A DNA stretch of 64,000 nt. Origin: an uncultured bacterium. GTDB taxonomy: Bacteria > Verrucomicrobiota > Kiritimatiellia > RFP12 > UBA1067. The DNA is taken from positions 1 through 64,000 of the forward strand of contig CACWIW010000016.1 in assembly GCA_902761035.1 (NCBI GenBank), in the 5' to 3' direction. Under the pieces are notes generated by a model. That model did not search any database. It saw nothing but the letters and a program-made list of their open reading frames with translations, and was not told where the DNA came from. Positions 10,759-61,034 of the stretch are shown one piece after another (position 1 is the stretch's first letter; each line of letters begins with the position of its first letter). The position numbers were made by a program, and so were the translations under genes.

Positions 10759-11568
10759 TTAGCGGTGCCGGCCACCACCGCCGGGGCCACGGCCCCAGCC
10801 TCTGCCGTGTCCGCCGCCAGTGGCTTCGTAGACTGCCTTGATCGCGGTTACGACCTCATGCGCCTGTTGACCGCGTAGACCGAGCGAATTGGCCGTTTGG
10901 GTGAGCAATGTATCGCGTTCGGTACGCTGCAGGTCGTGGAGCTTGTGCCCGATTTCACGCATCTCCTTGAACGCGGCCTCGCGCTGCGCATCCGTCACGT
11001 CGGTGTTGTTGGGGTTCATCAACTCGTGTAGCTCTTCCTGCCGGACGAGGAGGTCCTGATAGGTCTCGTGAACCCGCCGTTGTTCCTTTGTCATGTGCGT
11101 GGTATCCGCACTGGCGAGGATGTCGAACTGGTTCTGGAGGCGTTCCTGCCTGTGCGTGCGCCAACGGGCCATGTTGTTCGTCATCTGCGTGTAGCGTTGC
11201 GGGTCCCGCTCTCGCATCTCCTCGAAACGCGCGCGCATCTCGGCAGCTGTGGGAGGGTGTCCGAACGGACGGAATCCCTCGACGCGGTTGGTGGACGTGC
11301 CTCCAACAGGCTCTGCGGTTTCGGTCCGTTCGGCGAGCTGGCGTTCGAGGTCCTTGATCCGCGCGCGAAGGCGGTTGAGGTCGGCGTCATGTTCGCGGGA
11401 AGATTGCACGCGGGTGCGGTGGGTACGCTTTTCGGTGGTTTTCGCCTCTTCTTTCGCATTTTCCTCTGCCGGTTCGGCGGCGTTCGAGAACAGGGGCGGG
11501 ACGAAGTAGCCAAGCGCGGCTCCTACGAGGAGGGCGGCGAGGGCGATGACCGTGGATTGTGCTTTCAT
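10759..11568 (-). CDS. Membrane-anchored coiled-coil protein, paralogue of the protein at 32224
   Basis: A 269-residue protein of unknown function: one N-terminal membrane segment (residues ~5-28), a short acidic/basic linker, a coiled coil at ~60-85 (LNRLRARIKDLERQLAER), then a helical periplasmic-type domain with ILASADTTHMTKEQRRVHETYQDLL and a Gly/His/Arg-rich tail (GGGHGRGWGRGPGGGGRHR). The helical part recalls the CpxP/heavy-metal-sensor (Spy-like, LTxxQ) layout but lacks a clear LTxxQ. A second copy of the architecture is at 32224-33051 (FLASVNTDGMSDDERKNHE). Its ATG overlaps the stop of the upstream acyltransferase gene by 4 bases, implying translational coupling. Confidence 0.7.
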   Translation of the reverse strand: MKAQSTVIALAALLVGAALGYFVPPLFSNAAEPAEENAKEEAKTTEKRTHRTRVQSSREHDADLNRLRARIKDLERQLAERTETAEPVGGTSTNRVEGFRPFGHPPTAAEMRARFEEMRERDPQRYTQMTNNMARWRTHRQERLQNQFDILASADTTHMTKEQRRVHETYQDLLVRQEELHELMNPNNTDVTDAQREAAFKEMREIGHKLHDLQRTERDTLLTQTANSLGLRGQQAHEVVTAIKAVYEATGGGHGRGWGRGPGGGGRHR

Positions 11569-12497
11569 GCTGTGTGCCTCTTTTTCTTGTGTTTTTTGGG
11601 TGGCTGGAGTATCCAGCGACTGTTGTACCAAAACCACTGTTCGGGCGTCTTGCGCACGCCTTCGTCGATGAGCGACATCGCCTCGCGCATGAGGCGACGG
11701 GCCTCTTCCTTACGGTCGGGGGCATCCGGGTTCGGGCGGAGCGTGGCGAGGTGGTCGAAGGTGTGGAGGCCGTTCTCGCGGCGCATGATTGCCACCACCA
11801 CGGGCGCGCCCGTGGCGACGGCGAGCATCGCGCCGCCGTGGGAGACGTTCGCAGTGCCGTTGAGGAAGGGGACTTCCGTATCGGGGAAGGGCACGCGCAG
11901 GTCCGGGAGAATCGCGAAGGCGTGCCCGGCGGCGATGCGCGAGCGTATGTCCTGCAGCACGGTGGCGGAGCCGCGCGTGAGCACCTCGACGGAGCCGTAC
12001 TGTCGGTGCATCCAAGCCTCCACGTAGGGGTTGCGCTGGCTCGCGGCGATGGCGAAGAGCGGGATGTCGTAGCGCGCCATGGCCCAGGCGGCCATGTACC
12101 AGTTGCCGCAGTGCGGTACGAAGATGACGGCGCCGTGTCCTTCGTCCACGATTGCGCGCAGGCGGTCCGCGTACAGCTGCACGTCCTTCACGTGCTTCGA
12201 TATCCACTTCTTGTCGAGACGCGGCGCGCGGATCATCTCCACGGCGCTCTGCAGCACGTTCGCGAGGGAGTCGACGGCGATGCGGCGGCATTCGGCGGCG
12301 TCCTTCTCCGGGAACACGGACTGGATGCGCTCAAGCGTGCGGCTCCGGTGGAAGCCGCACGCGAAGGCGAAGCGCGCGAACCCGCGCGCGAACGCGCAGG
12401 CGATGCGGTAGGGCACGGCGTTCACCACCGCGCACGCGCTCCGCAGTGCCGCGTACTCGCACCAACAGGCGAATTTGGACTTCCTTTTCCGGGACAT
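11565..12497 (-). CDS. LpxL/HtrB-family lysophospholipid (lipid A) acyltransferase-like protein
   Basis: A 310-residue inner-membrane acyltransferase of the LpxL/LpxM family, which transfer acyl chains to lipid A in Gram-negative envelopes. The conserved block VPHCGNWYMAAWAM (~125) corresponds to the family HxGNWE; here the acidic catalytic residue five positions after His is Tyr, so activity may be altered. Other family strings are PDLRVPFPDTEVPFLNG, SHGGAMLAVATGAPVV and TPEQWFWYNSRW near the C-terminus. ATG 12497 is preferred over a TTG at 12506 because the minus-strand -10 box at 12513-12508 would start the RNA near 12501, leaving a leader of only a few bases. It forms an operon with the coiled-coil gene at 10759. 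Confidence 0.85.
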   Translation of the reverse strand: MSRKRKSKFACWCEYAALRSACAVVNAVPYRIACAFARGFARFAFACGFHRSRTLERIQSVFPEKDAAECRRIAVDSLANVLQSAVEMIRAPRLDKKWISKHVKDVQLYADRLRAIVDEGHGAVIFVPHCGNWYMAAWAMARYDIPLFAIAASQRNPYVEAWMHRQYGSVEVLTRGSATVLQDIRSRIAAGHAFAILPDLRVPFPDTEVPFLNGTANVSHGGAMLAVATGAPVVVAIMRRENGLHTFDHLATLRPNPDAPDRKEEARRLMREAMSLIDEGVRKTPEQWFWYNSRWILQPPKKHKKKRHTA

Positions 12498-55330: not shown

Positions 55331-56311
55331 CTACAGATTCCCCTCGTCGTCATCGGCGTCGAGAGGAATGACCTTGGTGCGTCCACCTTCTTCTTCGATT
55401 ACGCTGTGGTCCATCGCAGAGATGGTAATGCCAAGGTATTTTTCATCAATTCCGCAGCAAGACACTTCAACTTCAATCGTGTTGTTGAAGAATCCATGAT
55501 AGTTTGCTGCCGGGGCTATTGCAAACTTACTATCTTGATTGTTGTCAGAGTATATCGCAGATCCAACTACTTTAGCCGTCTCTCCACTATTACGCATTCC
55601 ACCAGCCATGCCTATTAGGAGATCCCAGCTGTCGTTCCCAGTCACTACCTCCTTGGAAGCAGAGTAAAGGCGTGACTTATTGGCAAGATTGAACTTCTGT
55701 CCGTATTTGCGTTCAATCATTGCGGCACAGTATTGTGCTTCACGTAAAATTGCGGTTGGCTTGTATGTGGCAAAATGTTCGGCTTTTGTCTGTATTGTGA
55801 TTTTATAGAGTCGCCTATCCTTTCGTGTGAACTGCAAGTACGCTGAATCGAATAGGCGGAATTTCGATTTTAGTTTTGGTGTGGCAACGTAATATTCCAA
55901 AGTCTTCCCAGACATTTTTTCTGTGACATCCTTAAACTCATCAGCTTTGGTGCCGAAAGTGAAACCGACGAAAGACTTCTGGCTGTCAGTTTTGTCATTT
56001 TCCTTGGCGAGGTCAACGGAACCGTCAAACTTTGGCGAGACATTCTTTTCCTGCTGTGTGGTATCAGTTGACGCGACTACGGCAGGGGTATTTGGACTGC
56101 ATGAGCGGACCAGAAAGATAGTCACGAGTACGACGGCGACAAGCACGACGACTCGTTGGACGATGCTTGCGGCGTTCCAGAGTTTCTTTGCACCCTCCAC
56201 GCCCTCCTTGGCCTTGTTCTTGATGGCATCACGTCCCTCTTGCGTCTTGATGGCGTCAAACTGCGCCTTTGCCTTATCGGCAAATGTCTCTTTTTTCTCT
56301 TCGTTGTCCAT
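55331..56311 (-). CDS. Single-pass membrane protein of unknown function
   Basis: A 326-residue protein: a charged cytoplasmic N-terminus (MDNEEKKETFADKAKAQFDAIK), one membrane segment (IVQRVVVLVAVVLVTIFLV, ~50-68), a polar linker, then an extracytoplasmic domain (~95-326) with SFVGFTFGTKADEF and a beta-rich end. No family is recognised. AAAGGAG lies 7 bases before ATG 56311, and a minus-strand TGGTATAAT box (56395-56387) supports the start. AT content is higher than core genes. It is separated from the FtsK-gamma-like gene by ~200 bases of repeat-like sequence. Confidence 0.65.
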   Translation of the reverse strand: MDNEEKKETFADKAKAQFDAIKTQEGRDAIKNKAKEGVEGAKKLWNAASIVQRVVVLVAVVLVTIFLVRSCSPNTPAVVASTDTTQQEKNVSPKFDGSVDLAKENDKTDSQKSFVGFTFGTKADEFKDVTEKMSGKTLEYYVATPKLKSKFRLFDSAYLQFTRKDRRLYKITIQTKAEHFATYKPTAILREAQYCAAMIERKYGQKFNLANKSRLYSASKEVVTGNDSWDLLIGMAGGMRNSGETAKVVGSAIYSDNNQDSKFAIAPAANYHGFFNNTIEVEVSCCGIDEKYLGITISAMDHSVIEEEGGRTKVIPLDADDDEGNL

Positions 56312-56436: not shown

Positions 56437-56543
56437 GGCGCATCTACATAATTCACCGCCGAGCCGTCTGATTATTGGAAACAACTATTTGAAACAACTT
56501 GCCTTTGGCGCACGGGCTAACTCGCCCGTGCCAATCGGCTAAT
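56437..56543. mobile_element. MITE-like element R1, partial copy
   Basis: Shares the GGCGCATCT...ATTCACCGCCGAGCC start and the CACGGGC-TAACTC-GCCCGTG hairpin with 60806-60907, then diverges. Confidence 0.75.
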
Positions 56544-56737
56544 CTAAGACGTTGTCCAAAAATAACTTTTACGCTCTTGCGCATGTAAAAAAACGTCGAT
56601 GTCGTTCAATAATGAGCCAGCTGTAAAACCTGGCCGAGCCCCGTCGAGTCCGTCAATTCACCCAATTGGGAACTCTAAAAATAGAAGATAACCAGCCGCC
56701 TTCGCATCTCGCAGGAATGAACATGAGGACAACTTTG

Positions 56738-56758
56738 ATTGCTTTCGCTATTGGGAGA
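56738..56758. repeat. Isolated end of element R2
   Basis: ATTGCTTTCGCTATTGGGAGA is the same as the left end of the 33 kb element. No partner end is nearby. Confidence 0.65.
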
Positions 56759-56821
56759 AAAGAAGAAGCTTTGCCTTTGAACTGCTTTCCTGTTTGTTAT
56801 GACCTCTAGAGCCCCGATTTA

Positions 56822-56906
56822 TGACACCTAGGTGTCACACCCTCTGACACCTAGGTGTCACACCCTCTGACACCTAGGTGTCATAACCCGTGACACCTAG
56901 GTGTCA
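56822..56906. repeat. Four-copy array of the palindrome TGACACCTAGGTGTCA
   Basis: Perfect 16-bp palindromes start at 56822, 56845, 56868 and 56891, an exact 23-bp period (about two helical turns). The first three share the spacer CACCCTC. It looks like an array of protein-binding sites. Confidence 0.92.
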
Positions 56907-57108
56907 CGGATCACGGGAAGTGATTGTAAGCTCTTCCTTGGCGGATTTTAGCGATGCCGTAATATCGCGGTTTGGTTTTGTCATCTCGTCTGCGTGGGAC
57001 GACTGGTTTCAGACGTCGCTCAAAAAAAGTTATATCTTACCGTTGCCTAACAGAAGGTGTCTATGAGATAATACCCACCGCCAACCACTCAAAGAAGGAG
57101 AATTGAAA

Positions 57109-57282
57109 ATGGCACACAAGATTGATCAAGAGAAGTGCGTCGGATGCGGCGCGTGCAAAGAGACCTGCCCGGCCGGTGCGATTTCCGAGGCGGACGGCAA
57201 GTGCGTGATCGACGCAGGCACCTGCGTTGACTGCGGCGCGTGCGCTGGCGGCTGCCCGGTCGAAGCGATCTCAGCTGAGTAA
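57109..57282 (+). CDS. 2[4Fe-4S] ferredoxin
   Basis: A 57-residue clostridial-type ferredoxin beginning MAHKIDQEKCVGCGACKETCP. Two CxxCxxCxxxCP clusters are complete (CVGCGACKETCP at ~10-21 and CVDCGACAGGCP at ~39-50), binding two [4Fe-4S] clusters for low-potential electron transfer, as expected in an anaerobe. AAGAAGGAG precedes ATG 57109 and a GATAAT box lies ~40 bases upstream. The following signal peptidase frame is read shortly after; a small CCGCGC...GCGCGG hairpin at 57311-57327 may attenuate between them. Confidence 0.95.
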   Translation: MAHKIDQEKCVGCGACKETCPAGAISEADGKCVIDAGTCVDCGACAGGCPVEAISAE

Positions 57283-60704: not shown

Positions 60705-60805
60705 TCTGTTTTCTCCTTTGGAGTGAAAGTCAATCCATGTAATTATACCGCTTTCGCCCCCCGTTTGGCAATGCCAAAAGAAAAAATGATACTCTGGTGG
60801 GGCCC

Positions 60806-61034
60806 GGGCGCATCTGCGAAATTCACCGCCGAGCCTTCTGATGATTGGAAACAACTATTTGAAACAACTTGCCTTTGGCGCACGGGCTAACTCGCCCGTG
60901 CCCATTTGACGATCCTCACAAACTGTCACGATTCTGATTGTTCAAGGTGCGCCATCAGGATAATGTTGTTCTTGAAAGTTGTCATGGTTGTTTCCAAATC
61001 CCAATACGCATGGGTGAAAAACGGAGATGCGCCC
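60806..61034. mobile_element. MITE-like element R1, full copy
   Basis: A 229-bp element with imperfect 22-bp terminal inverted repeats: left GGGCGCATCTGCGAAATTCA, right (inverted) GGGCGCATCTCCGTTTTTCA. A second, inner inverted repeat pairs ATTGGAAACAAC with GTTGTTTCCAAAT. The central hairpin CACGGGC-TAACTC-GCCCGTG differs from the 18 kb copy by a paired change. Confidence 0.8.

Follow-up and report, generated by a model that had tools for sequence, protein, structure and literature searches.

Four copies of one 16-bp palindrome, TGACACCTAGGTGTCA, lie at a regular spacing between positions 56,822 and 56,906 of the 64,000-nucleotide stretch analysed here (the window), which belongs to a Kiritimatiellia draft genome of 6.1 Mb in 315 contigs (the source genome, G000). 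What reads such an array, and why it is there, is the question raised by this locus. The original prediction of four identical palindromes with a 23-bp period was confirmed by an exact-match search of the window (Table 1), and the array is far beyond chance: shuffled controls gave a mean of 0.12 matches with 3 mismatches allowed, and 0 of 100 shuffles reached four. The region had also been described as free of genes, and no long ORF crosses the array. The four sites had further been placed on one face of the DNA. This does not strictly hold for neighbouring sites, since 23 bp corresponds to approximately 2.2 helical turns and rotates each site by about 70 degrees relative to the next. The linkers give the array a direction, and their consensus, YAMCCYN, is common to the source genome and to a genome of a second genus described below.

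Table 1. Features of the array and of the dispersed element that contains it, in window coordinates.
Feature	Position	Strand	Remarks
Palindromic unit 1, TGACACCTAGGTGTCA	56822..56837		Exact match; half-sites TGACAC / GTGTCA, centres 11 bp apart
Palindromic unit 2, TGACACCTAGGTGTCA	56845..56860		Exact match
Palindromic unit 3, TGACACCTAGGTGTCA	56868..56883		Exact match
Palindromic unit 4, TGACACCTAGGTGTCA	56891..56906		Exact match
Three 7-bp linkers	56838..56890	+	56838-56844 CACCCTC, 56861-56867 CACCCTC, 56884-56890 TAACCCG
Left flank of dispersed element	56768..56821	-	Over ~50 bp homologous with the HTH gene's 5' leader (contig C93)
Right flank of dispersed element (CGGATCACGGRAAGTGATTG...GATGCCGTAATA)	56907..56976	+	
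Other dispersed intergenic repeat modules around the element	56441..56767		Roughly 56441-56545, 56545-56605 and 56690-56760

Array and flanks together form a larger dispersed element (approximately 56768-56976), copies of which were seen at more than 20 examined loci, and the window from 56441 to 56976 is a mosaic of dispersed repeats. This mosaic lies in an intergenic region of 800 bp between divergent genes; the neighbours of the array are a minus-strand gene at 55331-56311 and a 4Fe-4S ferredoxin ORF at 57109-57282 on the plus strand. One of the repeat modules is present both at 56441-56545 and at approximately 60800-60900. It has one frame that reads MFPIIRRLGGE.. and was seen in about 11 of the fetched loci.

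A genome-wide search for the 16-mer, proposed beforehand as a check, returned 85 exact copies in the source genome and 113 copies with two or fewer mismatches; these form 24 arrays, and the reversed pattern, used as a control, gave 0. At least 24 arrays of 2-9 units are distributed over 24 contigs, and all are intergenic in gene calls. Two copies of the element hold a single unit (contigs C55 and C244), and in a copy on contig C45 the array has been lost entirely. Where units are present their number ranges from 1 to 9, with eroded edges. Spacing is 23 bp, with 22 bp in one variant beside the end unit. The arrays resemble BIMEs in being dispersed, intergenic and combined with other repeat modules. 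Searches for the exact array pattern in genome-contig and viral-contig collections gave no match, and no paper describing these arrays was found in the literature. Beside the arrays at two loci (L047 and L048) are runs of GGGAATT/GGGGATT heptamer-like repeats as well as a widespread module, TTTGCGTTCTTTGCGGCTAAAA, which is also present in other genomes of the genus.

Comparison of the arrays within the source genome points to constraint on the palindrome. Pairwise diversity per site between arrays is lowest in the palindrome (0.0135), intermediate in the flanks (0.13-0.18) and highest in the linker (0.29); conservation of the palindrome is therefore about 10-fold stronger than that of the flanks in these elements and about 20-fold stronger than that of the 7-bp linker. 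Across 78 internal units the palindrome is nearly invariant save for a C-to-T change at position 6, whereas free variation is seen at linker positions 17, 19, 22 and 23. Under unit duplication or gene conversion, palindrome and linker ought to become equally uniform, and the difference between them thus argues for constraint on the palindrome sequence. None of the variants among 111 units is an alternative perfect palindrome, which indicates that the sequence is kept and not symmetry alone. Quasi-palindrome repair as the sole cause of the perfect symmetry was rejected for the same reason.

The distribution of the arrays is narrow. The TGACACCTAGGTGTCA 16-mer is absent from 97 relatives, 15 other genomes of the genus among them. 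A relaxed pattern (TGACA-N6-TGTCA-N7, twice), which like the other array patterns detects only intact pairs of sites, was searched in 346 genomes of the class, compared as MAG-level assemblies, and found arrays with a 23-bp period in two: the source genome and Kiritimatiellae RGIG68 (G109), which belongs to another genus. In G109 no fewer than 11 arrays of TGACAYCCGGRTGTCA are present; their period (23 bp) and linker (YACCC) are those of the source genome, and their neighbours include ribosomal-protein-like genes. The cores differ, CTAG in the source genome and CCGG in G109, whereas the outer half-sites, linker and period are alike. A changed core within unchanged half-sites and period is what two related binding sites would look like.

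A candidate for the protein that binds these sites is encoded by the source genome itself. On contig C93 (locus L061) an array of 4 units ends 68 bp upstream of the ATG of an HTH gene (bases 11559-11825, 89 aa); the distance to a regulator gene was a further check proposed at the outset. In G109 (L117) an array lies directly upstream of the homologous HTH gene, in the same orientation as in the source genome. The G109 protein has 111 aa, the two proteins are 52-55% identical, and nothing was found in either beyond the HTH domain. The C93 protein scores above the curated cut-off of Pfam HTH_36 (PF13730), and its predicted structure is a winged HTH with three helices and a beta wing (mean pLDDT 74, from a shallow alignment of 13 sequences). 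The best Foldseek match of this model reached only E 2e-3, to general winged-HTH regulators; TubR, a winged-HTH partition protein, was among the weak fold matches. The protein had no hit in PHROGs at E 0.01 and only weak partial hits in phage and plasmid records. No obvious promoter was seen at the gene in the source genome.

Close homologs of the C93 protein were found in only two of the 346 genomes, the source genome and G109 (E 1e-57 and 4e-28; next best 1e-8). For two random genomes, the chance that HTH gene and arrays coincide in this way is approximately 1.7e-5. This is important to read with care, as the gene was found beside the arrays and its absence from the other 344 genomes is the new part. 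By a rough estimate, chance alone would place a shared gene next to an array about 0.2 times for two genomes, and the argument therefore leans on the exclusive co-occurrence and on a second system described below. According to the original prediction, absence of the array from near relatives, with no associated protein, would refute it. The arrays are indeed absent from the 15 other genomes of the genus, but a protein with the same distribution exists. An iteron-like or dense operator array for a DNA-binding protein, also suggested at the outset, fits these data well, with a candidate protein and an array before its gene in two genera. It is very probable that arrays of the window type are bound by the C93 HTH protein.

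Only one of the 24 arrays in the source genome adjoins the HTH gene. The dispersed elements and the leader of this gene share approximately 50 bp, diverging just before its ribosome-binding site. Because of this common stretch, the dispersed arrays look like copies of the control region of the HTH gene, or the gene has acquired a copy.

Parallel pairs of protein and array are present in relatives. In G020 and G139, TGACA/GACAT palindromes with a 22-bp period lie directly upstream of the gene for an HTH relative of 276-282 aa. In G034 and G138 a different sequence, TTTTAGACCA, is repeated at exactly 22 bp upstream of an HTH relative with another recognition helix (CRQRIA.A in the TTTTAGACCA branch, S..TV.RN in the other). 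TTTTAGACCA arrays occur in 8 of 115 genomes of the family and are dispersed in several; their period is always 22 bp, though 21-23 bp was allowed. They lie directly upstream of the HTH gene in four genomes (G034, G138, G142 and G057), and G057 has 5 more dispersed elsewhere. No HTH gene was found in the examined stretches of four other TTTTAGACCA genomes (G001, G008, G137 and G150). Array sequence and recognition helix thus change together across lineages, which is sequence evidence that the protein reads the array. The second protein-array pair suggests a previously unrecognised kind of genetic module. Candidate array sequences for the C93 protein and its relatives in G109, G057 and G142 are TGACACCTAGGTGTCA, TGACACCCGGGTGTCA and TTTTAGACCA.

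Several further repeats were noted in these genomes. TTTTAGACCA arrays stand at contig ends in many places (L259-L263 in G150, L265-L267 in G008) and for this reason are probably located inside longer, assembly-breaking repeated elements. At L218:1863-2160 in G020, an O-like initiator gene, TGACA-N3-TGTCA units and an AT-rich stretch lie together between ordinary chromosomal genes, and the locus has a second array of about seven 22-bp repeats of the ACCGGATGATTATAG type. This stretch looks like a minimal replication origin islet. A second family of tandem palindromes, TGGTGCGCACCA, with a period of 21-23 bp, is dispersed in the source genome (L091:1699-1780, L092, L093, L096, L057 and L089) and was also seen in L262 of G150, another genus, beside TTTTAGACCA arrays. 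Another group of HTH relatives, 'MKHRATG..RGRPP' (L221 and others), might read TGGTGCGCACCA; no arrays were seen upstream of their genes.

The longer HTH relatives connect the candidate protein to phage replication. They match the PHROGs families annotated 'replication initiation O-like' (phrog_391/270; best E values 7e-11 and 3e-9); for one small relative there is a weak match to a replication initiation family. The O-like link of the C93 protein comes via these longer relatives, and the homology covers the DNA-binding domain only. Lambda O binds tandem inverted-repeat iterons as dimers (PMC7466680), and the resemblance of the longer relatives to iteron-binding initiators is further evidence for the iteron-like part of the original prediction. 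In viral contigs (L172-L198), the coding sequence for an HTH_36 replication-type protein, whose helix reads SERTV(I/M)RKV, contains TGACA-N6-TGTCA repeated every 24 bp. This 24-bp version, present as iterons inside phage replication genes, is the commoner one in viral contigs. In L177 and L183, two of the contigs, the same site lies in the genes of different HTH proteins.

TGACA-N6-TGTCA arrays were also encountered in Bacteroidales, Planctomycetes, Desulfobulbus and phages, and a single system across phyla is not claimed. No such arrays were found in 392 other Bacteroidales genomes, and other half-sites tested also give a few viral-contig arrays, so that TGACA at 23 bp is not special by itself. 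In Planctomycetes (L119, L122, L126, L129 and L135) a pair of these palindromes at 23 bp lies near the same methyltransferase-like gene in several species, and near a sigma-54 activator-like gene in L122; this pair may be a conserved operator.

The existence of a parallel HTH-array pair, the dispersal of the arrays, the conservation of the palindrome and the exclusive co-occurrence with the HTH gene together argue for binding sites. The array is probably one of many tandem iteron/operator arrays, seeded across the chromosome, for an autoregulated, O-like winged-HTH (HTH_36) protein. A protein dimer would occupy each 16-bp palindrome through a pair of TGACAY half-sites spaced by one helical turn, with further dimers packed along the array, one per 23 bp. 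At the protein's own gene the array lies in the upstream control region, through which the protein would autoregulate. The other arrays, including that of the window, would be copies of this control region (array plus leader of about 50 bp) scattered in intergenic DNA, where they could serve as extra binding sites, drawing the protein away by titration or acting on promoters close by. Binding, autoregulation and any effect of the dispersed copies are what we infer from these patterns.

Other readings were weighed against this proposal. The HTH protein could be a global regulator with the arrays as operators of the neighbouring genes. Of 22 right-hand genes that could be scored, 17 are co-directional with the array, a moderate bias given the crude gene calls, and many right-hand genes code for secreted proteins, as such a regulon might have. 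However, the neighbours lack a shared theme: judged by eye rather than by systematic family annotation, genes flanking the other arrays are functionally heterogeneous and include those for a YchF-like GTPase, ferredoxin, sugar enzymes, oxidoreductases and large surface proteins. Many arrays are also more than 200 bp from a start codon, with distances often of 200-850 bp, and the regulon is possible but doubtful. A PEP-CTERM/sigma-54 regulon was considered separately and rejected, as only one PEP-CTERM-like neighbour was seen, on the wrong side, and the right flank has no fixed GG-N10-GC motif. The same protein might instead belong to a centromere-like or nucleoid-organising system in which the arrays are anchoring sites, as are parS, Noc, SlmA and MatP sites. 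Many dispersed, strictly conserved palindromes for one small protein would suit this role, as would TubR among the weak fold matches, but presence in 2 of 346 genomes is odd for chromosome maintenance, and among the ORFs beside the HTH genes, inspected by eye and not by family search, none was recognised as ParA-, ParM- or TubZ-like. With arrays at 24 scattered places and no ParA-type partner recognised by eye, the centromere-like function once suggested for the array is unsupported, and little probability is given to a system of this kind. An unlikely reading is a replicon-derived element or immunity system made of chromosomal stand-alone origin-binding domains and dispersed iteron arrays in lineage-specific pairs (TGACA, TTTTAGACCA, perhaps GGTGCGCACC). 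The dispersed arrays may then be decoy origins that draw off initiators when phages or plasmids invade, or they may derive, as non-autonomous copies, from a minimal self-replicating islet like that of L218. Ectopic lambda origins are reported to act as such decoys in the laboratory (PMC4488673).

The remaining readings need no cognate protein or place the function in RNA. A REP/BIME/MITE-like repeat containing a palindromic minisatellite could have spread by copying and slippage, with the HTH gene capturing a copy as its promoter region. The setting of the arrays inside mosaics of other dispersed repeats, the varying unit number with eroded edges and the absence from other genomes of the genus are all in keeping with this. 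It is nevertheless decidedly unlikely, given that the palindrome is conserved while linkers and flanks drift, that HTH gene and arrays have the same distribution in 346 genomes, and that unrelated repeat sequences precede related HTH genes in several genera. Tandem hairpins (UGACAC-CUAG-GUGUCA) acting in RNA as a terminator, attenuator or stability element are highly improbable. Strong hairpins are predicted, the arrays tend to be co-directional with the right-hand gene, and C6T, which gives a U-G wobble on one strand, by far outnumbers the mirror change G11A (21 against 1 of 111 units in the source genome). In one G109 array, however, the first unit has C6/A11 and the last T6/G11, and these imperfect units in both senses indicate no strand preference. 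This speaks for a dimer that binds the duplex and against a hairpin in RNA. Six array loci gave 0 matches in Rfam, and there are no convergent gene placements around the source-genome arrays, where terminators would sit.

Palindromic repeats scattered through the intergenic DNA of bacteria are usually written off as REP-like debris. In this case sequence alone points to a specific partner protein for chromosomal repeats, and the pairing recurs in other genomes with a different site sequence. If the proposed iteron/operator array is correct, chromosomal repeats of this class would be tied to the DNA-binding domains of initiators of phage replication, and a natural set of protein-site pairs would be at hand for an HTH_36 recognition code. 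Titration of the HTH protein and decoying of phage-type initiators are possible alternatives for the dispersed copies, whose role would then become testable with one 89-residue protein.

The arrays share features with several known systems. Like REP/BIME sequences and their RAYT (Y1 transposase), they are dispersed extragenic palindromes in mosaic clusters, but here the palindrome is tandem with a fixed 23-bp period. Y1_Tnp (PF01797) has 4 matches in the source genome and 0 in G109 (70% complete), and occurs in 90 of 115 genomes of the family whether or not they have arrays; a RAYT/REP transposase was rejected as array partner, being absent from G109 and widespread in genomes without arrays. 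As with an autoregulated repressor with tandem operators, the sites lie in the putative regulator's own control region, upstream of the HTH gene, with half-sites one turn apart. Unlike in that case, copies of what looks like the entire control region stand at many loci whose neighbours are functionally unrelated. As for parS, Noc, SlmA and MatP, one protein would have many strictly conserved palindromic sites. Those sites are single and belong to conserved chromosome systems, whereas the present ones form tandem arrays and their presence is sporadic.

The closest likeness is to the lambda origin and O protein, with tandem inverted-repeat sites of 16-19 bp, about two turns apart, for dimers of an O-like winged-HTH protein (lambda side: PMC7466680). 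Iterons of the lambda-O type are regular tandem inverted repeats of approximately 18-20 bp; the palindromes here are 16 bp with a period of 23 bp, against 22 bp in relatives and 24 bp in phage homologs. An O-like winged-HTH domain is indicated by the PF13730 match, the PHROGs match of the long relatives and the winged-HTH model. Unlike lambda O, the source-genome protein of 89 aa consists of the DNA-binding domain alone, without the C-terminal helicase-loading domain, and next to the window array no AT-rich region for unwinding was recognised. The arrays also differ from lambda in being upstream of the HTH gene (G000, G109, G034, G138, G142 and G057), and inside the gene only in phages, and in being spread over the chromosome at no fewer than 24 places. 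With these likenesses and differences, the window array most likely works like an iteron array.
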